64,000 bases of DNA from Astropecten irregularis (lineage: Eukaryota; Echinodermata; Asteroidea; Paxillosida; Astropectinidae): the NCBI GenBank assembly GCA_963971285.1, contig OZ020251.1:7440001-7504000 (forward strand). The letters run 5' to 3'. The position numbers and the translations under genes were made by a program. The stretch's first letter is position 1. Every line of letters starts with the position of its first letter. Of the stretch, positions 1 to 47,162 are shown in pieces. The notes beneath the pieces were generated by a model, which did no database searches, had not been told where the DNA came from, and saw nothing but the letters and a program-made list of their open reading frames with translations.

Positions 1-300
1 ATTAAAAAGACACGTGTAATTTTGTTTTTCCTCAGTCTGCCCCAGAAATGAGTAGCCAGATTTCAAAGATCGTTTTCAAATATTGGATTTGACAGCGCGC
101 TGCCATATAATAATACACATACAGTGTAGAACGTCATAACATGATATATAAATAATTACAGATTTCGCTATGCAGGGCGACTTCAGGTTCAAAAATTCAG
201 ATCTATGATCTAGACTGAAAATAAAAAGACACATGTAATTTTGTTTTTCCTGAGTTTGCCCCAGAAATGAGCGGGCAGATTTCAAAGATCGTGTTCAAAA

Positions 301-891
301 TATAGGATTTGACCGCGGGCTCTGCCATATAATGATACACGAAGGTGGAAACTAGACCCATCTTACTGACTATTATAAACATAATCCAGAACCATTTCAT
401 GCCACAACTCATTTTTTTCCACGCAGGCTCTATGGGCTTGCCTATAAGCGTGGCATGAGCCAGTCGTCTGGCATAGTCAGTGAATTATGGTCAAGATCCC
501 AGCCTTCGTAATATGGTTTGTACACGGGCTCATTGCTAAAGCGCGTTAGGATTTTTTTAGGGGGGAGGTGAAATGTTTTCACTTGATTTCAGCCATTTTT
601 TAGGTGATCGGTTTATGATTTTATGTTTTACTGCATGCTTAGAGTGGGACGTTTGTGCGAAGGACGAAATAAAAAATCGTGAAAAAAATAATTCTAACGG
701 CCCAATAAGTGGGACTGCAGTAACCTCAAACTATTAGTCGTATGACCTATGAATGATGCCTTGCAGCCCTAACTAGGATATGAAGGGGGTACGATCGATC
801 CTCGGGCATCGTAAAATCGACACTTTAGTGTGAACCACTTACACTATTTCATTGAGTTTAGTTATTCTAAATATAACACTCGTACAGTGTT
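301..891 (+). repeat. Long (L) satellite unit, copy 1
   Basis: This monomer carries the ~565-bp insert. The insert runs from after the CCATATAATGATACAC segment to the CACTCGTACAGTGTT segment, where ordinary monomer sequence resumes. It is the most diverged L copy: it reads GAAGGTGGAAACTAG, TTTTCACTTGATTTCAGCC and CACTCGTACAG where the other copies agree on different bases. The G run before CGATCGATCC is 5 long. Confidence 0.9.
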
Positions 892-3270
892 GAGCGTAAT
901 AACATGATATATAAATCATTACAGATTTTGCTTCGCAGGGGGACTTCAGGATTAGAAAGTAAGATCTCTGATCTAGACTGAAAATAAAAAGACAAGTGCA
1001 AATGGAATTTTCCTCAGTTTGCCCCATAAATGAGCAGCCAGATTTCAAAGATCGTGTTCAAAATATAGAATTAGACTGCGTAGGGCCTACTGCCACATAA
1101 AATACACATACCGTGTAGAACGTAATAAAATGATATAATAAATCATTACAGATTTCGCTACGCAGAGCGACTTCATGTTCTGCAATTCAGATCTATGACC
1201 TAGACTGAAAATAAAAAGAAACGTGTTATTTTGTTTTTCCCTGAGTTTGCCCCAGAAATGAGCAGTCAGAGTTCAAAGATCGTTTTCAAAATATTGGATT
1301 TGACAGCGTGCTGCCAAATATAATACACATACAATCTCAACCGGTATTGCATGATTTGTAAAACATTACAGATTTCGCTAAAAAGGGCGACTTCAGGCTC
1401 AAAAATTCAGATCTATGATCTACACTGAGAATAAAAAGACACGTGTAATTTTGTTTTTCCTGAGATCTGCCGAAGAAATGAGCAGCCAGATTTCAAAGAT
1501 CGTGTTCAAAATGAGGAATTAGACCACGCGCTGTCATATATAATGCACATACAGTGTAGAACGTCATAACATGATATATAAATCATTACAGATTTCGCTA
1601 TGCAGGGCGACTTCAGGCTCAAAATATCACATCTATGATCTACACTGAAAATAAACAGACAAGTGAAATTTAGTTTTTCCTGAGTTTGACCCAGAAATGA
1701 GCAGTCAGAGTTCAAAGATCGTGTTCAAAATGAGGAATTAGACTCTGCGTGCTGCCATATATAATACACATACAGTCTCAACCGGTATTGCATGATTACT
1801 TAAACATTACAGATTTCGCTATGCAGGGCGACTTCAGGCTCAAAAATTCAGATCTATGATCTAGACTGAAAATAAAAAGACACGTGAAATTTTGTTTTCC
1901 CTGAGTTTGCCCGAGAAATGAGCACTCAGAGTTCAAAGATCGTGTTCAAAATAAAGAATTTGACCGCGCGCTGTCATATTATAATGCACATACAGTGAAT
2001 AACGTCATAACATGATATATAAATCATTACAGATTTCGCTATGCAGGGCGACTTCAGGTTCAAAAATTCAGATCTATGATCTACACTGAAAATAAAAAGA
2101 CACGTGAAATTTAGTTTTTCCTGAGTTTGCCCCAGAAATGAGCAGGCAGATTTCAAAGATCGTTTTCAAAATGAAGAATTTGACCGCGCGCTGTCATATA
2201 TAATGCACATACAGTGTAGAACGTCATAACATGATATATAAATCATTACAGATTTCGCTATGCAGGGCGACTTCAGGCTAAAAAAATCAGATCTATGATC
2301 TAGACTGAAAATAAAAAGACATGTGAAATTTAGTTTTCCCTGAGTTTGCCCCAGAAATGAGCAGGCAGATTTCAAAGATCGTTTTCAAAATAAAGAATTT
2401 GACCGCGCGCTGTCATATATAATGCACATACAGTGTAGAACGCCATAACATGATATATAAATCATTACAGATTTCGCTATGCAGGGCGACTTCAGGCTCA
2501 AAAAATCACATCTATGATCTACACTGAAAATAAACAGACAAGTGAAATTTAGTTTTTCCTGAGTTTGACCCAGAAATGAGCAGTCAGAGTTCAAAGATCG
2601 TGTTCAAAATGAGGAATTAGACTCTGCGTGCTGCCATATATAATACACATACAGTCTAAACCGGTATTGCATGATTACTTAAACATTACAGATTTCGCTA
2701 TGCAGGGCGACTTCAGGCTCAAAAATTCAGATCTATGATCTAGACTGAAAATAAAAAGACACGTGAAATTTTGTTTTCCCTGAGTTTGCCCGAGAAATGA
2801 GCACTCAGAGTTCAAAGATCGTGTTCAAAATAAGGAAATAGACTGTGCGTGCTGCCATATATAATACACATACAATCTCAACCGGTATTGCATGATGTGT
2901 AAAACATTAGAGATTTCGCTATGCAGGGCGACTTCAGGCTCAAAAATTCAGATCTATGATCTAGACTGAAAATAAAAAGACACGTGTAATTTTGTTTTTC
3001 CTGAGATCTGCCCAAGAAATGAGCAGCCCGATTTCAAAGATCGTTTTCAAAATAAAGAATTTGACAGCGCGCTGTCATATATAATGCACATACAGTGTAG
3101 AACGTCATAACATGATATATAAATCATTACAGATTTCGCTATGCACTGCGACTTCAGGTTCAAAAATTCAGATCTATGATCTACACTGAAAATAAAAAGA
3201 CACGTGAAATTTTGTTTTTCCTGAGTTTGCCCCAGAAATGAGCAGGCAGATGTCAAAGATCGTGTTCAAA

Positions 3271-3856
3271 ATATAGGATTTGACCGCTGGCTCTGCCATA
3301 TAATGATACACAAACTTATGCACTATGGTGGGAACTAGACCGCATCTTACTGACTATGACAAACATAATCCAGGACCATTTCATGTCACTACTCATTTTT
3401 TTCCACGCAGGCTCTATGGGCTTGCCTGTAAGCGTGGCATGGGCCAGTCGTCTGGCATAGTCAGTGACATACGGTCAAGATCCCAGCCTTCGTAATACGG
3501 TTTGTACACGGAATCATTGCTAAAGCGCGTTAGGATTTTTTTAGGGGGGAGGTGGAATGTTTTCGCTGGATTTCAGACAATGTTTAGGTGATCGGTTTAT
3601 GATTTTATGTTTTACTGCATTGCTTAGCGTGGGACGTTACAGATTTCGCTACGCAAAGCGACTTCAGGTTCAGCAATTCAGATCTATGACCTACACTGAA
3701 TTGAAAATAAAAAGAAACGCCCTACGAAGAAGCCCTACGTAGGATACGATGGGGGTACGATCGATCCTCGGGCTTCGTGAAATCGACCCTTAAGTGTGAA
3801 TCACTTATAATATTTCATTGAGTTTAGTATTCTAAATATAACACTCATACAGTGTT
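3271..3856 (+). repeat. Long (L) satellite unit, copy 2, chimeric
   Basis: The L unit starts and ends normally. From about 3,640 to 3,720 its central part is replaced by ordinary monomer sequence (CAGATTTCGCTACGCAAAGC through TTGAAAATAAAAAGAAACGC). The segment normally found there (GTGCGAAGGACGAAATAAAA through the ATGATGCCTTGCAG region) is missing. The switch happens at GGGACGTTA, next to a similar ATTACAG/GTTACAG context. It looks like gene conversion or template switching. Confidence 0.9.
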
Positions 3857-4471
3857 GAGCGTAATAACATGATATATAAATCATTACAGATTTCGCCACG
3901 CAGAGCGACTTCAGGTTCAGCAATTCAGATCTATGACCTACACTGAATTGAAAATAAAAAGACACGTGTAATTTTGTTTTTCCTGAGTTTGCCCGAGAAA
4001 TGAGCAGGCAGATTTCAAAGATCGTTTTCAAAATAAAGAATTTGACCGCGCGCTGTCATATATAATGCACATACAGTGTAGAACGTCATAACATGATATA
4101 TAAATCATTACAGATTTCGCTATGCAGGGCGACTTCAGGCTCAAAAATTCAGATCTATGATCTACACTGAAAATAAAAAGACACGTGAAATTTTGTTTTT
4201 CCTGAGTTTGCCCCAGAAATTAGCAGCCAGATTTCAAAGATCGTTTTCAAAATAAAGAATTTGACCGCGCGCTGTCATATTATAATGCACATACAGTGTA
4301 GAACGTCATAACATGATATATAAATCATTACAGATTTCGCTATGCAGGGCGACTTCAGGCTCAAAAAAGCAGATCTATGATCTACACTGAAAATAAAAAG
4401 ACACGTGAAATTTTGTTTTTCCTGAGTTTCCCCCAGAAATGAGCAGGCAGATGTCAAAGATCGTGTTCAAA

Positions 4472-5078
4472 ATATAGGATTTGACCGCGGGCTCTGCCAT
4501 ATAATGATACACAAACTTATGCACGATGGTGGGAACTAGACCGCATCTTACTGACTATGACAAACATAATCCAGGACCATTTCATGTCACAACTCATTTT
4601 TTTCCACGCAGGCTCTATGGGCTTGCCTGTTAGCGTGGCATGGGCCAGTCGTCTGGCATAGTCAGTGACATATGGTCAAGATCCCAGCCTTCGTAATATG
4701 GTTTGTACACGGGATCATTGCTAAAGCGCGTTAGGATTTTTTTAGGGGGAGGTGGAATGTTTTCGCTGGATTTCAGACAATGTTTAGGTGATCGGTTTAT
4801 GATTTTATGTTTTACTGCATTGCTTAGCGTGGGAAGTTAGTGCGAAGGACGAAATAAAAAATCGTGAAAAAAATAATTCTAACGGCCCAATAAGTGGGAC
4901 TGCAGTAACCTCAATTAAACTATTAGTCGTATGACCTATGAATGATGCCTTGCAGCCCTACGTAGGATACGAGGGGGGACGATCGATCCTCGGGCTTCGT
5001 GAAATCGACCCTTTAGAGTGAATCACTTATAATATTTCATTGAGTTTAGTATTCTAAATATAACACTCATACAGTGTT
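4472..5078 (+). repeat. Long (L) satellite unit, copy 3
   Basis: Full-length L unit with a 6-G run. The following monomers (5,079-5,300) have the diverged GCAATTGGAATTTTCCTC and GCGTAGGGCCTACTGCC variants. Those variants also occur after copy 1 and in the inverted piece at 47.2 kb. Confidence 0.9.
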
Positions 5079-6128
5079 GAGCGTAATAACATGATATTTA
5101 ATCATTACAGGTTTTGCTTCGCAGGGGGAATTTAGGATTATAAATTAAGATCTCTGATCTAGACTGACAAAAAAAGAAAAGTGCAATTGGAATTTTCCTC
5201 GGTTTGCCCCATAAATGAGCAGCCAGATTTCAAAGATCGTTTTCAAAATATAGAATTAGACTGCGTAGGGCCTACTGCCACATATAATACACATACCGTG
5301 TAGAACGTAATAACATGATATAATAAATCATTACAGATTTTGCTACGCAGAGCGACTTCATGTTCTGCAATTCAGATCTATGACCTAGACTGAAAATAAA
5401 AAGACACGTGTTATTTTGTTTTTCCCTGAATTTGCCCGAGAAATGAGCAGGAAGATTTCAAAGATCGTTTTCAAAATATTGGATTTGACAGCGTGCTGCC
5501 AAATATAATACACATACAATCTCAACCGGTATTGCATGATTTGTAAAACATTACAGATTTCGCTAAAAAGGGCGACTTCAGGCTCAAAAATTAAGATCTA
5601 TGATCTAGACTGAAAATAAAAAGACAAGTGTAATTTTGTTTTTCCTGAGTCTGCCCAAGAAATGAGCAGCCAGATTTCAAAGATCGTTTTCAAAATAAAG
5701 AATTTGACCGCGCGCTGTCATATTATAATGCACATACAGTGAAGAACGTCATAACATGATATATAAATCATTACAGATTTCGCTATGCAGGGCGACTTCA
5801 GGTTCAAAAATTCAGATCTATGATCTACACTGAAAATAAAAAGACACGTGAAATTTAGTTTTTCCTGAGCTTGCCCCAGAAATGAGCAGGCAGATTTCAA
5901 AGATAGTGTTCAAAATAAAGAATTTGACCGCGCGCTGTCATATATAATGCACATACAGTGTAGAACGTCATAACATGATATATAAATCATTACAGATTTC
6001 GCTATGCAGGGCGACTTCAGGCTCAAAAAATCAGATCTATGATCTACACTGAAAATAAAAAGACACGTGAAATTTAGTTTTTCCTGAGTTTGCCCCAGAA
6101 ATGAGCAGGCAGATTTCAAAGATCGTTT

Positions 6129-7010: not shown

Positions 7011-7676
7011 TCAAAATAAAGAGTTTGACTGCGCGCTGTCATATATAATGCACATACAGTGTAGAACGTCATAACATGATATATAAATCATTACAGATTT
7101 CGCTATGCAGTGCGACTTCAGGTTCAAAAATTCAGATCTATGATCTAGACTGAAAATAAAAAGACACGTGAAATTTTGTTTTTCCTGAGTTTGCCCCAGA
7201 AATGAGCAGTCAGAGTTCAAAGATCGTGTTCAAAATAAGGAATTAGACTGTGCGTGCTGCCATATATAATACACATACAGTCTCAACCGGTATTGCATGA
7301 TTTGTAAAACATTACAGATTTCGCTATGCAGGGCGACTTCAGGCTCAAAAATTCAGATCTATGATCTAGACTGAAAATGAAAAGACACGTGAAATTTTGT
7401 TTTCCCTGAGTTTGCCCAAGAAATGAGCAGTCAGAGTTCAAAGATCGTGTTCAAAATAAGGAAATAGACTGTGCGTGCTGCCATATATAATACACATACA
7501 ATCTCAACCGGTATTGCATGATTTGTAAAACATTACATATTTCGCTATGCAGGGCGACTTCAGGCTCAAAAATTCAGATCTTTGATCTAGACTGAAAATA
7601 AAAAGACACGTGAAATTTTGTTTTTCCTGAGTCTGCCCCAGAAATGAGCAGGCAGATGTCAAAGATCGTGTTCAAA

Positions 7677-8285
7677 ATATAGGATTTGACCGCGGGCTCT
7701 GCCATATAATGATACACAAACTTATGCACGATGGTGGGAACTAGACCGCATCTTACTGACTATGACAAACATAATCCAGGACCATTTCATGTCACAACTC
7801 ATTTTTTTCCACGCAGGCTCTATGGGCTTGCCTATAAGCTTGGCATGGGCCAGTCGTCTGGCATAGTCAGTGACATATGGTCAAGATCCCAGCCTTCGTA
7901 ATATGGTTTGTACACGGGCTCATTGCTAAAGCGCGTTAGGATTTTTTTAGGGGGGAGGTGAAATGTTTTTCGCTGGATTTCAGACAATGTTTAGGTGATC
8001 GGTTTATGATTTTATTTTTACTGCATTGCTTAGCGTGGGACGTAAGTGCGAAGGACGAAATTAAAAATCGTGAAAAAAATAATTCTAACGGCCCAATAAG
8101 TGGGACTGCAATAACCTCAATTAAACTATTACTCGTATGACCTATGAATGATGCCTTGCAGCCCTACGTAGGATACGAGGGGGGGACGATCGATCCTCGG
8201 GCTTCGTGAAATCGACCCTTTAGAGTGAATCACTTATAATATTTCATTGAGTTTAGTATTCTAAATATAACACTCATACAGTGTT
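7677..8285 (+). repeat. Long (L) satellite unit, copy 4
   Basis: Full-length L unit with a 7-G run. It carries the variants GAAATGTTTTTCGCTGG, GGGACGTAAGTGCG and CAGTGTTGTGCG, shared only with copies 5 and 7. These variants open a 60-codon plus-strand frame that is closed in most other copies, which I do not regard as a gene. Confidence 0.92.
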
Positions 8286-9837
8286 GTGCGTAATAACATG
8301 ATATATAAATCATTTACAGATTTCGCTAGGCAGAGCGACTTCAGGTTCAGCAATTCAGATTTATGACCTACACTGAATTGAAAATAAAAAGACTGGTGTA
8401 ATTTTGTTTTTCCTGAGTTTGCCCGAGAAATGAGCAGGCAGATTTCAAAGATTGTTTTCAAAATAAAGAATTTGACCGCGCGCTGTCATATATAATGCAC
8501 ATACAGTGTAGAACGTCATAACATGATATATAAATCATTACAGATTTCGCTATGCAGGGCGACTTCAGGTTCAAAAATTCAGATCTATGATCTACACTGA
8601 AAATAAAAAGACACGTGAAATTTTGTTTTTCCTGAGTTTGCCCCAGAAATGAGCAGCAAGATTTCAAAGATCGTTTTCAAAATAAAGAATTAGACTGTGC
8701 GTGCTGCCATATATAATACACATACAGTCTCAACCGGTATTGCATGATTTGTAAAACATTACAGATTTCGCTATGCAGGGCGACTTCAGGCTCAAAAATT
8801 GAGATCTATGATCTACACTGAAAATAAAAAGACACGTGAAATTTTGTTTCTCCTGAGTTTGCCCCAGAAATGAGCAGTCAGAGTTCAAAGATCGTGTTCA
8901 AAATAAGGAATTAGACTGTGCATGCTGCCATATATAATACACATACAGTCTCAACCGGTATTGCATGATTTGTAAAACATTACAGATTTCGCTATGCAGG
9001 GCGACTTCAGGCTCAAAAATTCAGATCTATGATATAGACTGAAAATAAAAAGACACGTGTAATTTTGTTTTTCCTGAGATCTGCCCAAGAAATGAGCAGC
9101 CCGATTTCAAAGATCGTCTTCAAAATAAAGAATTTGACCGCGCGCTGTCATATATAATGCACATACAGTGTAGAACGTCATAACATGATATATAAATCAT
9201 TACAGATTTCGCTATGCAGTGCGACTTCAGGTTAAAAAATTCAGATCTATGATCTACACTGAAAATAACAAGACACGTGTTATTTTGTTTTTCCCTGAGA
9301 TTGCCCGAGAAATGAGCAGGACGATTTCAAAGATCGTTTTCAAAATATTGGATTTGACAGCGTGCTGCCATATATAATACACATACAATCTCAACCGGTA
9401 TTGCATGATTTTTAAAACATTACAGATTTCGCTAAACAGGGCGACTTCAGGCTCAAAAATTCAGATCTATGATTTAGACTGAAAATAAAAAGACAAGTGT
9501 AATTTTGTTTTTCCTGAGTCTGCCCAAGAAATGAGCAGCCAGATTTCAAAGATCGTTTTCAAAATAAAGAATTTGACCGCGCGCTGTCATATTATAATGC
9601 ACATACAGTGTAGAACGTTATAACATGATATATAAATCATTACAGATTTCGCTATGCAGGGCGACTTCAGGCTCAAAAAATCAGATCTATGATCTACACT
9701 GAAAATAAAAAGACACGTGAAATTTTGTTTTTCCTGAGTTTTCCCCAGAAATGAGCAGTCAGAGTTCAAAGATCGTGTTCAAAATAAGGAAATAGACTGT
9801 GCGTGCTGCCATATATAATACACATACAGTCTCAACC

Positions 9838-10983
9838 GGTATTGCATGATTTGGAAAACATTACAGATTTCGCTATGCAGGGAGACTTCAGGTTAAAAAA
9901 TTCAGATCTATGATCTACACTGAAAATAAAAAGACACGTGAAATTTTGTTTTTCCTGCGTTTGCCTCAGAAATGAGTAGGCAGATTTCAAAGATAGTTTT
10001 CAAAATAAAGAATTTGACCGCGCGCTGTCATATATAATGCACATACAGTGTAGAACGTCATAACATGATATATAAATCATTACAGATTTCGCAATGCAGG
10101 GCGACTGCAGGTTCAAAAATTAGGATCTGTGATCTACACTGAAAATAAAAAGACACGTGAAATTTTGTTTTCCCTGAGTTTGCCCCAGAAATGAGCAGTC
10201 AGAGTTCAAAGATCGTGTTCAAAATAAGGAAATAGACTGTGCGTGCTGTCATATATAATACACATACAGTCTCAACCGGTATTGCATGATTTGTAAAACA
10301 TTACAGATTTCGCTATGCAGGGCGACTTCAGGCTCAAAAATTCAGATCTATGATCTAGACTGAAAATAAAAAGACACGTGAAATTTTGTTTTCCCTGAGT
10401 TTGCCCGAGAAATGAGCAGTCAGAGTTCAAAGATCGTGTTCAAAATAAGGAAATAGACTGTGCGTGCTGTCATATATAATACACATACAGTCTCAACCGG
10501 TATTGCATGATTTGTAAAACATTACAGATTTCGCTATGCAGGGTGACCTCAGGCTCAAAAATTCAGATCTATGATCTACACTGAAAATTGCATGCGGTAT
10601 TGCATGATTTGGAAAACATTACAGATTTCGCTATGCAGGGAGACTTCAGGTTAAAAAATTCAGATCTATGATCTACACTGAAAATAAAAAGACACGTGAA
10701 ATTTTGTTTTTCCTGCGTTTGCCTCAGAAATGAGTAGGCAGATTTCAAAGATAGTTTTCAAAATAAAGAATTTGACCGCGCGCTGTCATATATAATGCAC
10801 ATACAGTGTAGAACGTCATAACATGATATATAAATCATTACAGATTTCGCAATGCAGGGCGACTGCAGGTTCAAAAATTAGGATCTGTGATCTACACTGA
10901 AAATAAAAAGACACGTGAAATTTTGTTTTCCCTGAGTTTGCCCCAGAAATGAGCAGTCAGAGTTCAAAGATCGTGTTCAAAAT
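9838..10983 (+). repeat. Duplicated two-monomer block with truncated junction monomer
   Basis: The segment 9,838-10,223 recurs at 10,596-10,981 (offset 758 bp) with the same rare variants: GATTTGGAAAACATT, CAGGGAGACTTCAGG, GCGACTGCAGG and TAGGATCTGTGATC. The second copy begins at an abnormal junction near 10,588-10,595. There the monomer breaks off after CACTGAAAAT and continues with TGCATGCGGTATTGC, skipping most of a monomer. Confidence 0.85.
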
Positions 10984-13630
10984 AAGGAAAAACACTATGC
11001 GTGCTGCCATATATAATACACATACAATCTCAACCGGTATTGCATGATTTGTAAAACATTACAGATTTCGCTATGCAGGGCGACTTCAGGCTCAAAAATT
11101 CAGATCTATGATCTAGACTGAAAATAAAAAGACACGTGAAATTTTGTTTTCCCTGAGTTTGCCCGAGAAATGAGCAGTCAGAGTTCAAAGATCGTGTTCA
11201 AAATAAGGAAATAGACTGTGCGTGCTGTCATATATAATGCACATACAATCTCAACCGGTATTGCACGATTTGTAAAACATTACAGATTTCGCTATGCAGG
11301 GTGACCTCAGGCTCAAAAATTCAGATCTATGATCTACACTGAAAATAAAAAGACACGTGAAAATTTTTTTTTCCTGAGTTTGCCCCAGAAATGAGCAGTC
11401 AGAGTTCAAAGATCGTGTCCAAAATAAGGAATTTGACCGCGCGCTGTCCTATATAATGCACATACAGTGTAGAACGTCATAACATGATATATAAATCATT
11501 ACAGATTTCGCTATGCAGTGCGACTTCAGGTTCAAAAATTCAGATCTATGATCTACACTGAAAATAAAAAGACACGTGTAATTTTGTTTTTCCTGAGATA
11601 TGCCCAAGAAATGAGCAGCCCGATTTCAAAGATCGTTTTCAAAATAAAGAATTTGACCGCGCGCTGTCATATATAATGCACATACAGTGTAGAACGTCAT
11701 AACATGATATATAAATCATTACAGATTTCGCTATGCAGGGCGACCTCAGGCTCCAAAATTCAGATCTATGATCTACACTGAAAATAAAAAGACACGTGAA
11801 ATTTTGTTTTTCCTGAGTTTGCCCCAGAAATGAGCAGTCAGAGTTCAAAGATCGTGTCCAAAATAAGGAAATAGACTGTGCGTGCTGTCATATAAAATAC
11901 ACATACAGTCTCAACCGGTATTGCATGATTTGTAAAACATTACAGATTTCGCTATGTAGGGCGACTTCAGGCTCAAAAATTCAGATCTATGATCTAGACT
12001 GAAAATAAAAAGACACGTGAAATTTTGTTTTTCCTGAGTTTGCCCCAGAAATGAGCAGTCAGAGTTCAAAGATCGTGTCCAAAATAAGGAAATAGACTGT
12101 GCGTGCTGTCATATAAAATACACATACAGTCTCAACCGGTATTGCATGATTTGTAAAACATTACAGATTTCGCTATGCAGGGCGACCTCAGGCTCAAAAA
12201 TTCAGATCTATGATCTACACGGAAAATAAAAAGACACGTGAAATTTTGTTTTTCCTGAGTTTGCCCCAGAAATGAGCAGTCAGAGTTCAAAGATCGTGTC
12301 AAAAATAAGGAATTAGACTGTGCGTGCTGCCATATATAATACACATACAGTCTCAACCGGTATTGCATGATTTGTAAAACATTACAGATTTCGCTATGCA
12401 GGGCGACTTCAGGCTCAAAAATTCAGATCTATGATCTAGACTGAAAATAAAAAGACACGTGTAAATTTGTTTTTCCTGAGATATGCCCAAGAAATGAGCA
12501 GCCCGATTTCAAAGATCGTTTTCAAAATAAAGAATTTGACCGCGCGCTGTCATATATAATGCACATACAGTGTAGAACGTCATAACATGATATATAAATC
12601 ATTACAGATTTCGCTATGCAGTGCGACTTCAGGTTCAAAAATTCAGATCTATGATCTACACTGAAAATAGAAAGACACGTGAAATTTTGTTTTTCCTGAG
12701 TTTGCCCCAGAAATGAGTAGGCAGATGTCAAAGATCGTGTTCAAAATAAGGAATTAGACTGTGCGTGCTGCCATATATAATACACATACAGTCTCAACCG
12801 GAATTGCATGATTTGTAAAACATTACAGATTTCGCTATGCAGGGCGACTTCAGGCTCAAAAATTCAGATCTAAAATCTAGACTGAAAATAAAAAGACACG
12901 TGAAATTTTGTTTTCCCTGAGTTTGCCCGAGAAATGAGCAGTCAGATTTCAAAGATCGTGTTCAAAATAAGGAAATAGACTGTGCGTGCTGCCATATATA
13001 ATACACATACAGTCTCAACCGGTATTGCATGATTTGTAAACAAATACAGATTTCGCTATGCAGGGCAACTTCAGGCTCAAAAATTCAGATCTATGATCTA
13101 GACTGAAAATAAAAAGACAAGTGTGATTTTGTTTTTCCTGAGATCTGCCCAAGAAATGAGCAGCCCGATTTCAAAGATCGTGTTCAAAATAAGGAAAAAG
13201 ACTGTGCGTGCTGCCATATATAATACACATACAATCTCAACCGGTATTGCATGATTTGTAAAACATTACAGATTTCGCTATGCAGGGCGACTTCAGGCTC
13301 AAAAATTCAGATCTATGATCTACACTGAAAATAAAAAGACACGTGAAATTTTGTTTTTCCTGAGTTTGCCCCAGAAATGAGCAGTCAGAGTTCAAAGATC
13401 GTGTTCAAAATAAGGAAAAAGACTGTGCGTGCTGCCATATATAATACACATACAATCTCAACCGGTATTGCATGATTTGTAAAACATTACAGATTTCGCT
13501 ATGCAGTGCGACTTTAGGCTCAAAAATTCAGATCTATGATCTTGACTGAAAATAAAAAGACACGTGAAATTTTGTTTTTCCTGAGTCTGCCCCAGAAATG
13601 AGCAGGCAGATGTCAAAGATCGTGTTCAAA

Positions 13631-33371: not shown

Positions 33372-33981
33372 ATATAGGATTTGACCGCGGGCTTTGCCAT
33401 ATAATGATACACAAACTTATGCACGATGGTGGGAACTAGACCGCATCTTACTGACTATGACAAACATAATCCAGGACCATTTCATGTCACAACTCATTTT
33501 TTTCCACGCAGGCTCTATGGGCTTGCCTATAAGCGTGGCATGGGCCAGTCGTCTGGCATAGTCAGTGACATATGGTCAAGATCCTAGCCTTCGTAATATG
33601 GTTTGTACACGGGCTCATTGCTAAAGCGCGTTAGGATTTTTTTAGGGGGGAGGTGGAATGTTTTCGCTGGATTTCAGCCAATGTTTAGGTGATCGGTTTA
33701 TGATTTTATGTTTTACTGCATTGCTTAGCGTGGGACGTTAGTGCGAAGGACGAAATAAAAAATCGTGAAAAAAATAATTCTAACGGCCCAATAAGTAGGA
33801 CTGCAGTAACCTCAATTAAACTTTTAGTCGTATGACCTATGAATGATGCCTTGCAGCCCTAAGTAGGATACGGGGGGTGGGACGATCGATCCTCGGTCTT
33901 CGTGAAATCGACCCTTTAGAGTGAATCACTTATTATATTTCATTGAGTTTAGTATTCTAAATATAACACTCATACAGTGTT
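33372..33981 (+). repeat. Long (L) satellite unit, copy 13
   Basis: Full-length L unit of the AATAAGTAGGACTGC group. The G run is interrupted (6 G, T, 3 G). It is the last L unit before a 6.4-kb stretch with none. Confidence 0.92.
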
Positions 33982-34539
33982 GAGCGTAATAACATGATAT
34001 ATAAATCATTACAGATTTCGCCACGCAGAGCGACTTCAGGTTCAGCAATTCAGATCTATGACCTACACTGAATTGAAAATAAAAAGACACGTGTAATTTT
34101 GTTTTTCCTGAGTTTGCCCGAGAAATGAGCAGGCAGATTTCAAAGATCGTTTTCAAAATAAAGAATTTGACCGCGCGCTGTCATATTGCATATACAGTGT
34201 AGAACGTCATAACATGATATATAAATCATTACAGATTTCGCTATGCAGGGCGACTTCAGGCTAAAAAAATCAGATTTATGATCTACACTGAAAATAAAAA
34301 GACACGTGAAATTTTGTTTTTCCTGAGTTTGCCCCAGAAATGAGCAGTCAGAGTTCAAAGATCGTGTTCAAAATAAGGAATTAGACTGTGCGTGCTGCCA
34401 TATATAATACACATAGAGTCTCAACCGGTATTGCATGATTTGTAAAACATTACAGATTTCGCTATGCAGGGCGACTTCAGGCTCAAAAATTCAGATCTAT
34501 GATCTACACTGAAAATAAAAAGACACGTGTAATTTTGTT

Positions 34540-37500
34540 TTTCCTGAGATCTGCCAAAAGAAATGAGCAGCCAGATTTCAAAGATCGTTTTCAAAATAAA
34601 GAATTTGACCGCGCGCTGTCATATATAATGCACATACAGTGTAGAACCTCATAACATGATATATAAATCATTACAGATTTCGCTATGCAGGGCGACTTCA
34701 GGTTCAAAAATTCAGATCTATGATCTACACTGAATTGAAAATAAAAAGACACGTGTAATTTTGTTTTTCCTGAGTTTGCCCGAGAAATGAGCAGGCAGAT
34801 TTCAAAGATCGTTTTCAAAATAAGGAATTAGACTGTGCGTGCTGCCATATATAAAATACATAGAGTCTCAACCGGTATTGCATGATTTGTAAAACATTAC
34901 AGATTTCGCTATGCAGGGCGACTTCAGGCTCAAAAATTCAGATCTATGATATAGACTGAAAATAAAAAGACACGTGTAATTTTGTTTTTTCCTGAGATCT
35001 GCCTAAGAAATGAGCAGCCAGATTTCAAAGATCGTTTTCAAAATAAAGAATTTGACCGCGCGCTGTCATATATAATGCACATACAGTGTAGAACGTCATA
35101 AAAAGATATATAAATCATTACAGATTTCGCTATGCAGGGCGACTTCAGGCTAAATAAATCAGATTTATGATCTACACTGAAAATAAAAAGACACGTGAAA
35201 TTTTGTTTTTCCTGAGTTTGCCCCAGAAATGAGCAGTCAGAGTTCAAAGATCGTGTTCAAAATAAGGAATTAGACTGTGCGTGCTGCCATATATAATACA
35301 CATAGAGTCTCAACCGGTATTGCATGATTTGTAAAACATTACAGATTTCGCTATGCAGGGCGACTTCAGGCTCAAAAATTCAGATCTATGATCTACACTG
35401 AAAATAAAAAGACATGTGAAATTTTGTTTTTCCTGAGTTTGCCCCAGAAATGAGCAGTCAGAGTTCAAAGATCGTGTTCAAAATAAGGAATTAGACTGTG
35501 CGTGCTGCCATATATAATACACATACAGTCTCAACCGGTATTGTATGATTTGTAAAATATTACAGATTTCGCTATGCAGGGCGACTTCAGGCTCAAAAAT
35601 TCAGATCTATGATCTACACTGAATTGAAAATAAAAAGACACGTGTAATTTTGTTTTTCCTGAGTTTGCCCGAGAAATGAGCAGGCAGATTTCAAAGATCG
35701 TTTTCAAAATAAGGAATTAGACTGTGCGTGCTGCCATATATAAAATACATAGAGTCTCAACCGGTATTGCATGATTTGTAAAACATTACAGATTTCGCTA
35801 TGCAGGGCGACTTCAGGCTCAAAAATTCAGATCTATGATATAGACTGAAAATAAAAAGACACGTGTAATTTTGTTTTTTCCTGAGATCTGCCTAAGAAAT
35901 GAGCAGCCAGATTTCAAAGATCGTTTTCAAAATAAAGAATTTGACCGCGCGCTGTCATATATAATGCACATACAGTGTAGAACGTCATAACAAGATATAT
36001 AAATCATTACAGATTTCGCTATGCAGGGCGACTTCAGGCTAAATAAATCAGATTTATGATCTACACTGAAAATAAAAAGACACGTGAAATTTTGTTTTTC
36101 CTGAGTTTGCCCCAGAAATGAGCAGTCAGAGTTCAAAGATCGTGTTCAAAATAAGGAATTAGACTGTGCGTGCTGCCATATATAATACACATAGAGTCTC
36201 AACCGGTATTGCATGATTTGTAAAACATTACAGATTTCGCTATGCAGGGCGACTTCAGGCTCAAAAATTCAGATCTATGATCTACACTGAAAATAAAAAG
36301 ACATGTGAAATTTTGTTTTTCCTGAGTTTGCCCCAGAAATGAGCAGTCAGAGTTCAAAGATCGTGTTCAAAATAAGGAATTAGACTGTGCGTGCTGCCAT
36401 ATATAATACACATACAGTCTCAACCGGTATTGTATGATTTGTAAAATATTACAGATTTCGCTATGCAGGGCGACTTCAGGCTCAAAAATTCAGATCTATG
36501 ATCTACACTGAATTGAAAATAAAAAGACACGTGTAATTTTGTTTTTCCTGAGTTTGCCCGAGAAATGAGCAGGCAGATTTCAAAGATCGTTTTCAAAATA
36601 AGGAATTAGACTGTGCGTGCTGCCATATATAAAATACATAGAGTCTCAACCGGTATTGCATGATTTGTAAAACATTACAGATTTCGCTATGCAGGGCGAC
36701 TTCAGGCTCAAAAATTCAGATCTATGATATAGACTGAAAATAAAAAGACACGTGTAATTTTGTTTTTTCCTGAGATCTGCCTAAGAAATGAGCAGCCAGA
36801 TTTCAAAGATCGTTTTCAAAATAAAGAATTTGACCGCGCGCTGTCATATATAATGCACATACAGTGTAGAACGTCATAACAAGATATATAAATCATTACA
36901 GATTTCGCTATGCAGGGCGACTTCAGGCTAAATAAATCAGATTTATGATCTACACTGAAAATAAAAAGACACGTGAAATTTTGTTTTTCCTGAGTTTGCC
37001 CCAGAAATGAGCAGTCAGAGTTCAAAGATCGTGTTCAAAATAAGGAATTAGACTGTGCGTGCTGCCATATATAATACACATAGAGTCTCAACCGGTATTG
37101 CATGATATATAAATCATTACAGATTTCGCTATGCAGGGCGACTTCAGGCTAAAAAAATCAGATTTATGATCTACACTGAAAATAAAAAGACACGTGAAAT
37201 TTAGTTTTTCCTGAGTTTGCCCCATAAATGAGCAGTCTGAGTTCAAAGATCGTGTTCAAAATAAGGAATTAGACTGTGCGTGCTGCCATATATAATACAC
37301 ATAGAGTCTCAACCGGTATTGCATGATTTGTAAAACATTACAGATTTCGCTAAGCAGGGCGACTTCAGGCTCAAAAATTCAGATCTATGATCTACACTGA
37401 AAATAAAAAGACACGTGTAATTTTGTTTTTCCTGAGATCTGCCAAAAGAAATGAGCAGCCAGATTTCAAAGATCGTTTTCAAAATAAAGAATTTGACCGC

Positions 37501-39700
37501 GCGCTGTCATATATAATGCACATACAGTGTAGAACCTCATAACATGATATATAAATCATTACAGATTTCGCTATGCAGGGCGACTTCAGGTTCAAAAATT
37601 CAGATCTATGATCTACACTGAATTGAAAATAAAAAGACACGTGAAATTTTGTTTTTCCTGAGTTTGCCCCAGAAATGAGCAGTCAGAGTTCAAAGATCGT
37701 GTTCAAAATAAGGAATTAGACTGTGCGTGCTGCCATATATAATACACATAGAGTCTCAACCGGTATTGCATGATTTGTAAAACATTACAGATTTCGCTAT
37801 GCAGGGCGACTTCAGGCTCAAAAATTCAGATCTATGATCTACACTGAAAATAAAAAGACACGTGTAATTTTGTTTTTCCTGAGATCTGCCAAAAGAAATG
37901 AGCAGCCAGATTTCAAAGATCGTTTTCAAAATAAAGAATTTGACCGCGCGCTGTCATATATAATGCACATACAGTGTAGAACCTCATAACATGATATATA
38001 AATCATTACAGATTTCGCTATGCAGGGCGACTTCAGGTTCAAAAATTCAGATCTATGATCTACACTGAATTGAAAATAAAAAGACACGTGTAATTTTGTT
38101 TTTCCTGAGTTTGCCCGAGAAATGAGCAGGCAGATTTCAAAGATCGTTTTCAAAATAAGGAATTAGACTGTGCGTGCTGCCATATATAAAATACATAGAG
38201 TCTCAACCGGTATTGCATGATTTGTAAAACATTACAGATTTCGCTATGCAGGGCGACTTCAGGCTCAAAAATTCAGATCTATGATATAGACTGAAAATAA
38301 AAAGACACGTGTAATTTTGTTTTTTCCTGAGATATGCCTAAGAAATGAGCAGCCAGATTTCAAAGATCGTTTTCAAAATAAAGAATTTGACCGCGCGCTG
38401 TCATATATAATGCACATACAGTGTAGAACGTCATAACAAGATATATAAATCATTACAGATTTCGCTATGCAGGGCGACTTCAGGCTAAATAAATCAGATT
38501 TATGATCTACACTGAAAATAAAAAGACACGTGAAATTTTGTTTTTCCTGAGTTTGCCCCAGAAATGAGCAGTCAGAGTTCAAAGATCGTGTTCAAAATAA
38601 GGAATTAGACTGTGCGTGCTGCCATATATAATACACATAGAGTCTCAACCGGTATTGCATGATTTGTAAAACATTACAGATTTCGCTATGCAGGGCGACT
38701 TCAGGCTCAAAAATTCAGATCTATGATCTACACTGAAAATAAAAAGACACGTGAAATTTTGTTTTTCCTGAGTTTGCCCCAGAAATGAGCAGTCAGAGTT
38801 CAAAGATCGTGTTCAAAATAAGGAATTAGACTGTGCGTGCTGCCATATATAATACACATACAGTCTCAACCGGTATTGTATGATTTGTAAAATATTACAG
38901 ATTTCGCTATGCAGGGCGACTTCAGGCTCAAAAATTCAGATCTATGATCTACACTGAATTGAAAATAAAAAGACACGTGTAATTTTGTTTTTCCTGAGTT
39001 TGCCCGAGAAATGAGCAGGCAGATTTCAAAGATCGTTTTCAAAATAAGGAATTAGACTGTGCGTGCTGCCATATATAAAATACATAGAGTCTCAACCGGT
39101 ATTGCATGATTTGTAAAACATTACAGATTTCGCTATGCAGGGCGACTTCAGGCTCAAAAATTCAGATCTATGATATAGACTGAAAATAAAAAGACACGTG
39201 TAATTTTGTTTTTTCCTGAGATCTGCCTAAGAAATGAGCAGCCAGATTTCAAAGATCGTTTTCAAAATAAAGAATTTGACCGCGCGCTGTCATATATAAT
39301 GCACATACAGTGTAGAACGTCATAACAAGATATATAAATCATTACAGATTTCGCTATGCAGGGCGACTTCAGGCTAAATAAATCAGATTTATGATCTACA
39401 CTGAAAATAAAAAGACACGTGAAATTTTGTTTTTCCTGAGTTTGCCCCAGAAATGAGCAGTCAGAGTTCAAAGATCGTGTTCAAAATAAGGAATTAGACT
39501 GTGCGTGCTGCCATATATAATACACATAGAGTCTCAACCGGTATTGCATGATTTGTAAAACATTACAGATTTCGCTATGCAGGGCGACTTCAGGCTCAAA
39601 AATTCAGATCTATGATCTACACTGAAAATAAAAAGACACGTGAAATTTTGTTTTTCCTGAGTTTGCCCCAGAAATGAGCAGTCAGAGTTCAAAGATCGTT
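34540..39700 (+). repeat. Recent four-monomer higher-order repeat, period 889 bp, in two tracts 3,335 bp apart
   Basis: A marked monomer with CATAACAAGATATATAAATC and GGCTAAATAAATCAGATTTA starts at about 35,038, 35,927 and 36,816, and again at 38,373 and 39,262. The steps are 889 bp within each tract and 3,335 bp between tracts. Differences between copies are very few, for example AAAAAG versus AACAAG at the first copy. This is the most homogenised and presumably youngest part of the array. It contains no L unit. Confidence 0.88.
37085..37135 (+). repeat. A/B chimeric monomer (recombination junction)
   Basis: A type-B start (CTCAACCGGTATTGCATGAT) runs directly into a type-A continuation (ATATAAATCATTACAG). 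The join is at the shared CATGAT near 37,101. It marks a crossover between subfamilies inside the 889-bp tract. Confidence 0.8.
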
Positions 39701-40371
39701 TTCAAAATAAAGAATTTGACCGCGCGCTGTCATATATAATGCACATACAGTGTAGAACGTCATAACATGATATATAAATCATTACAGATTTCACTATGCA
39801 GGGCGACTTCAGGCTCAAAAAATCAGATTCATGATCTACACTGAAAATAAAAAGACACGTGAAATTTTGTTTTTCCTGAGTTTGCCCCAGAAATGAGCAG
39901 TCAGAGTTCAAAGATCGTGTTCAAAATAAGGAATTAGACTGTGCGTGCTGCCATATATAATACACATACAGTCTCAACCGGTATTGTATGATTTGTAAAA
40001 TATTACAGATTTCGCTATGCAGGGCGACTTCAGGCTCAAAAATTCAGATCTATGATCTACACTGAATTGAAAATAAAAAGACACGTGTAATTTTGTTTTT
40101 CCTGAGATCTGCCCAAGAAATGAGCAGCCCGATTTCAAAGATCGTTTTCAAAATAAAGAATTTGACCGCGCGCTGTCATATATAATGCACATACAGTGTA
40201 GAACGTCATAACATGATATATAAATCATTACAGATTTCGCTATGCAGGGCGACTTCAGGTTCAAAAATTCAGATCTATGATCTACACTGAAAATAAAAAG
40301 ACACGTGAAATTTTGTTTTTCCTGAGTTTGCCCCAGAAATGAGCAGGCAGATGTCAAAGATCGTGTTCAAA

Positions 40372-40995
40372 ATATAGGATTTGACCGCGGGCTCTGCCAT
40401 ATAATGATACACAAACTTATGCACGATGGTGGGAACTAGACCGCATCCTACTGACTATGACAAACATAATCCAGGACCATTTCATGTCACAACTCATTTT
40501 TTTCCACGCGGGCTCTATGGCCTTGCCTATAAGCGTGGCATGGGCCAGTCGTCTGGCATAGTCAGTGACATATGGTCAAGACCCCAGCCTTCGTAATATG
40601 GTTTGTACACGGGCTCATTGCTAAAGCGCGTTAGGATTTTTTAAGGGGGGGGGGGGGGTGGAATGTTTTCGCTGGATTTCAGACAATGTTTAGGTGATCG
40701 GTTTATGATTTTATGTTTTACTGCATTGCTTAGCGTCGGACGTTAGTGCGAAGGACGAAATAAAAAATCATGAAAAAAATAATTCTAACGGCCCAATAAG
40801 TGAGACTGCAGTAACCTCAATTAAACTATTAGTCGTATGACCTATGAATGATGCCTTGCAGCACTACGTAGGATACGAGGGAGGGGGGGGGGGGGACGAT
40901 GGATCCTCGGGCTTCGTGAAATCGACCCTTTAGAGTGAATCACTTTTAATATTTCATTGAGTTTAGTATTCTAAATATAACACTCATACAGTGTT
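40372..40995 (+). repeat. Long (L) satellite unit, copy 14
   Basis: Full-length L unit in which both G tracts are expanded. The tract after GGATTTTTTAA is 14 G, against about 6 in other copies. The tract before CGATGGATCC is 13 G. Private changes include CGCATCCTACTG and CGCGGGCTC. Confidence 0.92.
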
Positions 40996-41831
40996 GAGCG
41001 TAATAACATGATATATAAATCATTACAGATTTCGCCACGCAGAGCGACTTCAGGTTCAGCAATTCAGATCTATGACCTACACTGAATTGAAAATAAAAAG
41101 ACACGTGTAATTTTGTTTTTCCTGAGTTTGCCCGAGAAATGAGCAGGCAGATTTCAAAGATCGTTTTCAAAATAAAGAATTTGACCGCGCGCTGTCATAT
41201 ATAATGCACATACAGTGTATAACGTCATAACATGATATATAAATCATTACAGATTTCGCTATGCAGGGCGACTTCAGGCTAAAAAAATCAGATTGATGAT
41301 CTACACTGAAAATAAAAAGACACGTGAAATTTTGTTTTTCCTGAGTTTGCCCGAGAAATGAGCAGGCAGATTTCAAAGATCGTTTTCAAAATAAAGAATT
41401 TGACCGCGCGCTGTCATATATAATGCACATACAGTGTAGAACGTCATAACATGATATATAAATCATTACAGATTTCACTATGCAGGGCGACTTCAGGCTC
41501 AAAAAATCAGATTCATGATCTACACTGAAAATAAAAAGACACGTGTAATTTTGTTTTTCCTGAGATCTGCCCAAGAAATGAGCAGCCAGATTTCAAATAT
41601 CGTGTTCAAAATAAGGAATTAGACTGTGCGTGCTGCCATATATAATACACATAGAGTCTCAACCGGTATTGCATGATTTGTAAAACATTACAGATTTCGC
41701 TATGCAGGGCGACTTCAGGCTCAAAAATTCAGATCTATGATCTACACTGAAAATAAAAAGACACGTGAAATTTTGTTTTTCCTGAGTTTGCCCCAGAAAT
41801 GAGCGGGCAGATGTCAAAGATCGTGTTCAAA

Positions 41832-42448
41832 ATATAGGATTTGACCGCGGGCTCTGCCATATAATGATACACAAACTTATGCACGAAGGTGGGAACTAGA
41901 CCGCATCTTACTGACTATGACAAACATAATCCAGGACCATTTCATGTCACAACTCATTTTTTTCCCACGCAGGCTCTATGGGCTTGCCTATAAGCGTGGC
42001 ATGGGCCAGTCGTCTGGCATAGTCAGTGACATATGGTCAAGATCCCAGCCTTCGTAATATGGTTTGTACACGGGCTCATTGCTAAAGCGCGTTAGGATTT
42101 TGTTAGGGGGGAGGTGGAATGTTTTCGCTGGATTTCAGACAATGTTTAGGTGATCGGTTTATGATTTTATGTTTTACTGCATTGCTTAGCGTGGGACGTT
42201 AGTGCGAAGAACGAAATAAAAAATCGTGAAAAAAATAATTCTAACGGCCCAATAAGTGGGACTGCAGTAACCTCAATTAAACTATTAGTCGTATGACCTA
42301 TGAATGATGCCTTGCAGCCCTACGTAGGATACGAGGGAGGGGGGGGGGACGATCGATCCTCGGGCTTCGTGAAATCGACCCTTTAGAGTGAATCACTTAT
42401 AATATTTCATTGAGTTTAGTATTCTAAATATAACACTCATACAGTGTT
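41832..42448 (+). repeat. Long (L) satellite unit, copy 15
   Basis: Full-length L unit with GAGGGA plus a 10-G run, the TAGGATTTTGTTAGG variant and GCGAAGAACG. It is nearly identical to copy 16, which starts 1,898 bp downstream. Confidence 0.92.
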
Positions 42449-43729
42449 GAGCGTAATAACATGATATATAAATCATTACAGATTTCGCCACGCAGAGCGA
42501 CTTCAGGTTCAGCAATTCAGATCTATGACCTACACTGAATTGAAAATAAAAGGACTCGTGTAATTTTGTTTTTCCTGAGCTTGCCCGAGAAATGAGCAGG
42601 CAGATTTCAAAGATCGTTTTCAAAATAAAGAATTTGACTGTGCGTGCTGCCATATATAAAACACATAGAGTGTCAACCGGTATTGCATGATTTGTAAAAC
42701 ATTACAGATTTCGCTATGCAGGGCGACTTCAGGCTAAAAAAATCAGATTTATGATCTACACTGAAAATAAAAAGACACGTGAAATTTTGTTTTTCCTGAG
42801 TTTGCCCCAGAAATGAGCAGTCAGAGTTCAAAGATCGTGTTCAAAATAAGGAATTAGACTGTGCGTGCTGCCATATATAAAACACATAGAGTCTCAACCG
42901 GTATTGCATGATTTGTAAAACATTACAGATTTCGCTATGGAAGGCGACTTCAGGCTCAACAAATCAGATCTATGATCTACACTGAAAATAAAAAGACACG
43001 TGAAATTTTGTTTTTCCTGAGTTTGCCCCAGAAATGAGCAGTCAGAGTTCATAGATCGTGTTCAAAATAAGGAATTAGACTGTGCGTGCTGCCATAAATA
43101 ATACACATAGAGTCTCAACCGGTATTGCATGATTTGTAAAACATTACAGATTTCGCTATGCAGGGCGACTTCAGGCTCAAAAATTCAGATCTATGATATA
43201 GACTGAAAATAAAAAGTAACTTGTAATTTTGTTTTTCCTGAGATCTGCCCAAGAAATGAGCAGCCAGATTTCAAAGATCGTTTTCAAAATAAAGAATTTG
43301 ACCGCGCGCTGTCATATATAATGCACATACAGTGTAGAACGTCATAACATGATATATAAATCATTACAGATTTCACTATGCAGGGCGACTTCAGGCTCAA
43401 AAAATCAGATTCATGATCTACACTGAAAATAAAAAGACACGTGTAATTTTGTTTTTCCTGAGATCTGCCCAAGAAATGAGCAGCCATATTTCAAATATCG
43501 TGTTCAAAATAAGGAATTAGACTGTGCGTGCTGCCATATATAATACACATAGAGTCTCAACCGGTATTGCATGATTTGTAAAACATTACAGATTTCGCTA
43601 TGCAGGGCGACTTCAGGCTCAAAAATTCAGATCTATGATCTACACTGAAAATAAAAAGACACGTGAAATTTTGTTTTTCCTGAGTTTGCCCCAGAAATGA
43701 GCGGGCAGATGTCAAAGATCGTGTTCAAA

Positions 43730-44347
43730 ATATAGGATTTGACCGCGGGCTCTGCCATATAATGATACACAAACTTATGCACGAAGGTGGGAACTAGACC
43801 GCATCTTACTGACTATGACAAACATAATCCAGGACCATTTCATGTCACAACTCATTTTTTTCCCACGCAGGCTCTATGGGCTTGCCTATAAGCGTGGCAT
43901 GGGCCAGTCGTCTGGCATAGTCAGTGACATATGGTCAAGATCCCAGCCTTCGTAATATGGTTTGTACACGGGCTCATTGCTAAAGCGCGTTAGGATTTTG
44001 TTAGGGGGGAGGTGGAATGTTTTCGCTGGATTTCAGACAATGTTTAGGTGATCGGTTTATGATTTTATGTTTTACTGCATTGCTTAGCGTGGGACGTTAG
44101 TGCGAAGAACGAAATAAAAAATCGTGAAAAAAATAATTCTAACGGCCCAATAAGTGGGACTGCAGTAACCTCAATTAAACTATTAGTCGTATGACCTATG
44201 AATGATGCCTTGCAGCCCTACGTAGGATACGAGGGAGGGGGGGGGGGACGATCGATCCTCGGGCTTCGTGAAATCGACCCTTTAGAGTGAATCACTTATA
44301 ATATTTCATTGAGTTTAGTATTCTAAATATAACACTCATACAGTGTT
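43730..44347 (+). repeat. Long (L) satellite unit, copy 16
   Basis: Near-twin of copy 15, sharing GGATTTTGTTAGG and GCGAAGAACG, with an 11-G run. Copy 17 starts 1,898 bp downstream. Confidence 0.92.
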
Positions 44348-45627
44348 GAGCGTAATAACATGATATATAAATCATTACAGATTTCGCCACGCAGAGCGAC
44401 TTCAGGTTCAGCAATTCAGATCTATGACCTACACTGAATTGAAAATAAAAGGACTCGTGTAATTTTGTTTTTACTGAGCTTGCCCGAGAAATGAGCAGGC
44501 AGATTTCAAAGATCGTTTTCAAAATAAAGAATTTGACTGTGCGTGCTGCCATAAATAAAACACATAGAGTGTCAACCGGTATTGCATGATTTGTAAAACA
44601 TTACAGATTTCGCTATGCAGGGCGACTTCAGGCTAAAAAAATCAGATTTATGATCTACACTGAAAATAAAAAGACACGTGAAATTTTGTTTTTCCTGAGT
44701 TTGCCCCAGAAATGAGCAGTCAGAGTTCAAAGATCGTGTTCAAAATAAGGAATTAGACTGTGCGTGCTGCCATATATAAAACACATAGAGTCTCAACCGG
44801 TATTGCATGATTTGTAAAACATTACAGATTTCGCTATGGAAGGCGACTTCAGGCTCAACAAATCAGATCTATGATCTACACTGAAAATAAAAAGACACGT
44901 GAAATTTTGTTTTTCCTGAGTTTGCCCCAGAAATGAGCAGTCAGAGTTCATAGATCGTGTTCAAAATAAGGAATTAGACTGTGCGTGCTGCCATAAATAA
45001 TACACATAGAGTCTCAACCGGTATTGCATGATTTGTAAAACATTACAGATTTCGCTATGCAGGGCGACTTCAGGCTCAAAAATTCAGATCTATGATCTAC
45101 ACTGAAAATAAAAAGACACGTGAAACTTTGTTTTTCCTGAGTTTGCCCCAGAAATGAGCAGTCAGAGTTCAAAGATCGTGTTCAAAATAAGGAATTAGAC
45201 TGTGCGTGCTGCCATATATAATACACATACAGTCTCAACCGGTATTGCATGATTTGTAAAACATTACAGATTTCGCTATGCAGGGCGACTTCAGGCTCAA
45301 AAATTCAGATCTATGATATAGACTGAAAATAAAAAGTAACGTGTAATTTTGTTTTTCCTGAGATCTGCCCAAGAAATGAGCAGCCAGATTTCAAAGATCG
45401 TTTTCAAAATAAAGAATTTGACCGCGCGCTGTCATATATAATGCACATACAGTGTAGAACGTCATAACATGATATATAAATCATTACAGATTTCGCTATG
45501 CAGGGCGACTTCAGGTTCAAAAATTCAGATCTATGATCTACACTGAAAATAAAAAAACACGTGAAATTTTGTTTTTCCTGAGTTTGCCCCAGAAATGAGC
45601 AGGCAGATGTCAAAGATCGTGTTCAAA

Positions 45628-46244
45628 ATATAGGATTTGACCGCGGGCTCTGCCATATAATGATACACAAACTTATGCACGATGGTGGGAATTAGACCGC
45701 ATCTTACTGACTATGACAAACATAATCCAGGACCATTTCATGTCACAACTCATTTTTTTTCCACGCAGGCTCTATGGGCTTGCCTATAAGCGTGGCATGG
45801 GCCAGTCGTCTGGCATAGTCAGTGACATATGGTCAAGATCCCAGCCTTCGTAATACGGTTTGTACACGGGCTCATTGCTAAAGCGCGTTAGGATTTTTTT
45901 AGGGGGGAGGTGGAATGTTTTCGCTGGATTTCAGACAATGTTTAGGTGATCGGTTTATGATTTCATGTTTTACTGCATTGCTTAGCGTGGGACGTTAGTG
46001 CGAAGGACGAAATAAAAAATCGTGAAAAAAATAATTCTAACGGCCCAATAAGTGGGACTGCAGTAACCTCAATTAAACTATTAGTCGTATGACCTATGAA
46101 TGATGCCTTGCAGCCCTACGTAGGATACGAGGGAGGGGGGGGGGACGATCGATCCTCGGGCTTCGTGAAATCGACCCTTTAGAGTGAATCACTTATAATA
46201 TTTCATTGAGTTTAGTATTCTAAATATAACACTCATACAGTGTT
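45628..46244 (+). repeat. Long (L) satellite unit, copy 17
   Basis: Last complete L unit on the plus strand, with a 10-G run. It keeps the common GGATTTTTTTAGG form rather than the GTTAGG of copies 15 and 16. Only about four ordinary monomers separate it from the array edge. Confidence 0.92.
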
Positions 46245-47095
46245 GAGCGTAATAACATGATATATAAATCATTACAGATTTCGCCACGCAGAGCGACTTC
46301 AGGTTCAACAATTCAGATCTATGACCTACACTGAATTGAAAATAAAAGGACACGTGTAATTTTGTTTTTCCTGAGTTTGCCCGAGAAATGAGCAGGCAGA
46401 TTTCAAAGATCGTTTTCAAAATAAAGAATTTGACCGCGCGCTGTCATATATAATGCACATACAGTGTATAACGTCATAACATGATATATAAATCATTACA
46501 GATTTCGCTATGCAGGGCGACTTCAGGCTCAAAAAATCAGATTTATGATCTACACTGAAAACAAAAAGACACGTGAAATTTTGTTTTTCCTGAGTTTGCC
46601 CCAGAAATGAGCAGTCAGAGTTCAAAGATCGTGTTCAAAATAAGGAATTAGACTGTGCGTGCTGCCATATATAAAACACATAGAGTCTCAACCGGTATTG
46701 CATGATTTGTAAAACATTACAGATTTCGCTATGCAGGGCGACTTCAGGCTCAAAAATTCAGATCTATGATCTACACTGAAAATAAAAAGACATGTGAAAT
46801 TTTGTTTTTCCTGAGTTTGCCCCAGAAATGAGCAGTCAGAGTTCAAAGATCGTGTTCAAAATAAGGAATTAGACTGTGCGTGCTGCCATATATAATACAC
46901 ATAGAGTCTAAACCGGTATTGCATGATTTGTAAAACATTACAGATTTCGCTATGCAGGGCGACTTCAGGCTCAAAAATTCAGATCTATGATCTACACTGA
47001 AAATAAAAAGACACGTGTAATTTTGTTTTTCCTGAGTTTGCCCAAGAAATGGGCAGCCAGATTTCAAAGATCGTGTTTAAAATATAGAATTAGAC

Positions 47096-47162
47096 TGAGT
47101 GCTTAAATTTACTTTTTGTGATATGCGCCATATGACAACTGTTTATTAATATTATTATTATT
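47096..47162. other. Unique spacer with ATT microsatellite between array edge and inverted copy
   Basis: This is the only non-satellite DNA between the last forward monomer and the reversed piece. It holds AT-rich sequence ending in repeated ATT units (about 47,147-47,162). It would form the loop of the inverted repeat. Confidence 0.7.

Follow-up and report, generated by a model that had tools for sequence, protein, structure and literature searches.

One head-to-tail array of related monomers occupies positions 1 to about 47,100 of a 64,000-nucleotide stretch of the Astropecten irregularis genome (Echinodermata, Asteroidea; assembly GCA_963971285.1, contig OZ020251.1, forward-strand positions 7,440,001–7,504,000; hereafter the window). 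The array enters the window through its left edge, so that 47 kb is a minimum length. A profile search with a single monomer (nhmmer) gave matches from 3 to 47,104, all in one orientation and absent only from the interior of the long units described below, and a minus-strand self-comparison found no inverted matches within the array proper. Tandem Repeats Finder detected periods near 220 bp and near 441 bp across most of the region, which rules out chance as an explanation. Cutting the array at a fixed point of the monomer yielded 170 units, namely 88 of type B, 65 of type A and 17 long (L) units, the partial unit at 1–157 being left out of this count. A first-pass annotation of the window had described more than 47 kb of uninterrupted head-to-tail repeats, composed of two ~220-bp subfamilies together with 17 long units measuring some 760–790 bp. 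Apart from the open left edge and a few irregular units that description holds; the long units measure 757–795 bp, and we add two units of a further type, C. As delimited by Tandem Repeats Finder, profile search and unit cutting (1–47104, plus strand, open to the left), the stretch has the long array of related monomers typical of satellites and is probably animal satellite DNA.

The A and B units are each about 220 bp long (short units are mostly 219–226 bp) and their consensus sequences are 87.8% identical. Mean unit identity is 0.92 among A units, 0.94 among B units and 0.84 across the two types in a set of 152 units which included the C units and a falsely split unit at 3639, both of which depress the within-A figure. 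Steps between short units comprise 45 A-B, 40 B-A, 40 B-B and 11 A-A, and the unit order is therefore not a strict dimer. Irregular units of 97, 236 and 158 bp lie at 10524, at 17265 and at the cut right end, respectively. The 97-bp unit is truncated and sits at the joint of a direct duplication at 9837–11346 (752 bp, 98.9% identical, offset 758).

Interrupted monomers and their insert

All 17 L units consist of a monomer broken at about position 175 of 221 by a common insert of about 555 bp. The junctions are identical in every one of them, and the insert is complete from end to end in 15. Since the same insert is found at the same point throughout, the long units do not amount to a monomer class of their own, and their earlier description as a third, long monomer class was misleading. 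The insert is unlike the monomer: the best local alignment scores were 22 on the plus strand and 23 on the minus strand, values reached by 163 and 137 of 200 shuffles, respectively. The units lie on the plus strand at 158–920, 3129–3885, 4330–5106, 7535–8315, 13489–14269, 16034–16819, 17501–18281, 23139–23924, 24592–25377, 26258–27037, 28362–29142, 30466–31246, 33230–34010, 40230–41024, 41690–42477, 43588–44376 and 45486–46273, and are separated in turn by 10, 2, 11, 24, 8, 3, 22, 3, 4, 6, 6, 9, 28, 3, 5 and 5 short monomers.

A hairpin whose arms measure about 57 bp takes up the first ~200 bp of the insert. The consensus arms align with a score of 49, compared with a maximum of 30 in 200 shuffles. 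Folding was performed on the last L unit, whose insert spans 45662–46223; there the hairpin (45667–45863, plus strand) reaches −70.8 kcal/mol (z −4.45), and none of 200 shuffles folded as well. The complete insert of the same unit folds barely above chance (z −2.02, 3 of 100 shuffles), which places the structure in the first third of the insert. With its terminal inverted repeats this left third resembles a miniature inverted-repeat transposable element (MITE), and the 5-bp string TACAC, considered as a candidate target-site duplication, stands at both hairpin ends, partly inside the inverted repeat. The remaining ~350 bp contain no recognised feature. No dispersed copy of the hairpin occurs in the 17-kb flank, the only sequence outside the array that was covered. 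By eye, roughly 12 monomer bases recur imperfectly on both sides of the insert and may represent a target-site duplication.

The inserts are closely alike. Identity to the insert consensus is 92.8% for the L unit at 158, which is the most diverged and has a 12-bp deletion near the left end of its insert, 98.6% for the otherwise ordinary unit at 4330, and 95.4–98.7% for the other 14 unpatched units; among these 14, mean pairwise identity is 98.6% in the hairpin and 97.5% in the tail. The patched unit, at 3129 (757 bp), retains insert positions 1–335 and 450–555, with positions 336–449 replaced by about 90 bp (3639–3730) resembling the monomer start. Judged by its sequence the patch appears conversion-like, and by eye it is nearest to the unit type usually found 3′ of L units.

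Two diverged monomers, named C, follow the L units at 158 and 4330 directly. The C unit at 921–1147 (plus strand) has a mean identity of 0.79 to A and finds its best match (0.943) in the other, at 5107–5332 (plus strand; 0.78 to A). Compared region by region with what follows the other 14 L units, these two monomers show mean identities of 0.75–0.84 (16 of 17 L units compared, the patched one excluded). There are three instances of an insert tail joined to a C monomer, two of them at these L units and one in an inverted piece at 47,161–47,596, and this pairing may be older than the other arrangement.

Proposed exchange along the array and within the monomer

Near-identical segments of 0.8–2.2 kb recur at many offsets along the array, as found by chaining exact matches. 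The longest exact repeat, of 1,630 bp, has copies 9,966 bp apart (7590–9219 and from 17556), each of which includes most of an L unit, at 7535 and 17501. The spacings of L units also recur exactly: three units starting with that at 26258 are spaced at 2,104 bp, and three starting with that at 41690 at 1,898 bp. A local higher-order repeat of four monomers (889 bp), accompanied by longer offsets, occupies the L-free region 34289–39699 (plus strand), where copies are 99.8–99.9% identical (34704–36217, 99.93%, and 38039–38810, 99.87%, both at offset 889). Copies at the 889-bp offset are thus 99.9% identical, compared with a mean of 0.875 between adjacent monomers. The repeated unequal exchange proposed in the first-pass annotation is supported by these segments, by the recurring spacings and by the unit identities.

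Within the monomer, the A and B consensus sequences do not differ across a 5′ run of 78 columns, a run matched in none of 2,000 permutations, although individual units do vary there. Polymorphic sites at which A and B have variants in common (at least 5%) number 11 of 25 in columns 1–136 and 0 of 14 in columns 137–221 (Fisher p 0.003, with the cut at column 136 chosen after inspection of the data). On the strength of these sequence patterns it is plausible that exchange between A and B is located in the 5′ part and re-sorts the 3′ cassettes.

Array edge and flanking sequence

The array breaks off in mid-monomer near 47,100 and is followed by about 60 bases with an ATT run and then by the inverted piece (47161–47596, minus strand; profile search and self-comparison), which consists of insert positions 376–555 (94.4% identical) and one C-type monomer. 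Overall this piece is 92.3% identical to 695–1142 and 94.7% to 4880–5313, compared with 84–86% for the 13 others among the best 15 matches, a gap due mainly to the C monomer. It may be a reversed relic of an older array edge or a separate element copy. No further copies follow up to 64,000, where the next best matches have E values of 0.19 (monomer profile) and 0.6 (L profile). Directly after the piece, 47595–47632 has a weak forward likeness to the monomer 3′ end that is not significant (E 1.9).

Seventeen stop-to-stop frames of at least 90 amino acids were found in the window, eight of them inside the array. Pfam searches with six flank frames returned one match above the cut-off, a PAN-domain exon at 56944–57492 (minus strand, E 2.9e-05), the remaining matches being below it. 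A PDB search with this frame gave nothing better than E 0.66. A stretch at 63862–64000, at the window end, is 70% similar to the exon, and the two perhaps belong to a small gene family. Three diverged copies of a dispersed repeat lie at 49025–49355, 51992–52365 and 55784–55941 (65–74% identical); the first two are inverted to each other around reverse-transcriptase-like scraps recognised by eye, and a decayed element may have left these copies as its long arms. The PAN-domain sequences and these scraps together point to animal DNA. At 48219–48392 a unit of about 83 bp is duplicated in tandem (~95% identical).

Searches for other kinds of element were negative. Rfam gave no match at the gathering threshold over the window, and thus no sign of a structured RNA or ribozyme satellite; no tRNA was detected in the window with bacterial settings. 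The hammerhead core (CTGANGA) was rejected as a candidate: its 11 matches in the window fall short of the shuffle mean of 29.35, and just two of them, at 29–35 and 1011–1017, are inside the array. A 29-base monomer string had no exact match in viral and prokaryote contigs, and neither this string nor six monomer strings of 16 to 20 bases occurs in the searchable texts of papers.

Probable origin and spread of the interrupted monomer

The array is probably a non-coding satellite evolving by unequal exchange, in which a single insertion into one monomer was followed by amplification. A composite of ~555 bp (the hairpin, MITE-like third plus 350 bp), presumably arriving by transposition, would have entered one monomer on a single occasion, close to position 175. 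Unequal crossing-over or conversion would then have multiplied the interrupted monomer, neighbours included, across the array, giving rise to the 17 L units and to several young higher-order repeats; crossovers would plausibly be concentrated in that 5′ portion of the monomer in which A and B resemble each other. The junction and insert common to the L units, the hairpin, the segmental copies of near identity and the monomer-patched L unit can be read directly in the array, and the explanation does not need a function in the organism. The ‘composite ancestor’ invoked earlier fits the L unit but not the array as a whole, most units being free of the insert.

Mixed short and long units are indeed uncommon, as the first-pass annotation remarked, but they have a precedent. 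In the bovine 1.711a and 1.711b satellites a unit is interrupted by foreign sequence and the interrupted unit is amplified. These satellites share with the Astropecten array an amplified interrupted satellite unit; here, in contrast, the L units stand one by one, interspersed with A and B monomers that lack the insert. The local multimers with near-identical copies are reminiscent of alpha-satellite-type higher-order repeats (PMC5615363, PMC4053949), although those of Astropecten are short-range, irregular and without evidence of a centromere. The array gives the impression of ordinary satellite evolution in a well-preserved state and not of a new kind of system.

Several results weigh against the insertion-and-exchange explanation or parts of it. 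No clean target-site duplication was established for the insert. Neighbouring units are no more alike (0.875 at lag 1) than units at lag 80 (0.874), from which it follows that exchange was not only local and that copies also moved over tens of kilobases. The association of sites with the unit's own 3′ type climbs from 0.12 in columns 1–50 to 0.79 in columns 181–221, but part of this gradient is built in, the types having been defined at the 3′ end, and after near-duplicates had been thinned (67 of 147 units kept) the rise in columns 1–140 was not significant (rho 0.30, p 0.23). The fall expected in the association with the type of the previous unit was not significant either (rho −0.06 over 39 sites; −0.10 in columns 1–140), and association with the type of the next unit, the control, rises as well (rho 0.47 for all units, 0.51 after thinning).

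The satellite might instead derive from a mobile element, a non-autonomous foldback or Helitron-like one with an expanded internal repeat; the insert and a C monomer would represent its ends and core, and the inverted piece would be a dispersed copy of it. The repeated pairing of insert tail and C monomer, once beside the ATT run, speaks for such an origin, and so do known systems. The Cg_HINE Helentron elements of the Pacific oyster and the Cg170/HindIII satellite (PMC7492417) have monomers mostly of 140–180 bp, with a longest array of 29.3 monomers. Like the array described here, they combine tandem repeats with palindromes and microsatellites, and the succession of monomers, a palindrome, a unique segment and again monomers is reminiscent of Cg_HINE copies in tandem, whose repeats are bounded by one flank on the left and by another, carrying a palindrome, on the right. 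Tetris/TIR-220 of Drosophila virilis (PMC4079207) is a precedent for such an origin of repeats of ~220 bp, which are likewise tied to an inverted-repeat element and are located inside its inverted repeats; in Astropecten, however, the hairpin is inside the monomer and holds no monomer sequence. Satellites joined one-sidedly to parts of elements are also described in a review (PMC12628747). Against these likenesses, the consensus insert outside the hairpin showed neither exact inverted pairs of 10 bp nor pairs of 12 bp with one mismatch, and those of 11 bp with one mismatch number three (shuffle mean 0.9). The consensus insert thus lacks the 11–12 bp subterminal inverted repeats with palindrome given for Helentron-associated HINEs in PMC7492417, and in comparison with Cg_HINE, subterminal inverted repeats of 10 to 12 bp are not above chance. 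By eye there is no CTRR end directly 3′ of the hairpin, and the inverted piece holds only the 3′ part of the insert, its outer end not being a recognised terminus. On balance we think an origin of this kind unlikely. A broader proposal, in which the array is a set of interchangeable 3′ cassettes (A, B, L and C) on a common 5′ crossover block and the insert plus C is a remnant of the satellite's founding mobile element, is decidedly unlikely.

Selection on a protein-binding or nucleosome-phasing block, as opposed to exchange, might have kept the 5′ part of the monomer alike, and the 78 columns devoid of consensus differences would be expected from it. Within-type diversity, however, is not lower in columns 1–80 (0.05–0.08 in A, 0.03–0.08 in B) than in the rest (0.02–0.10 and 0.04–0.06), which makes exchange look likelier than constraint, and the core of the CENP-B box is absent from the window; we regard selection as improbable. 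Misassembly as the source of the inverted outlier and of the array's sudden stop on the right, or of the exact repeats in the kilobase range, is more improbable still. Assemblers can misplace sequence of this type, with exact repeats reaching 1,630 bp, yet unit-specific variants are abundant, as the mean identities within A and within B indicate, and the inverted piece is 92–95% like its nearest relatives and not identical to them.

General knowledge of satellites is unchanged by this array. If insertion into one monomer followed by amplification is correct, one contiguous assembly preserves 17 settings of the interrupted monomer, a patched copy and diverged relatives among them, and the sequence would reveal both how a single insertion spread and where within the monomer exchange takes place.

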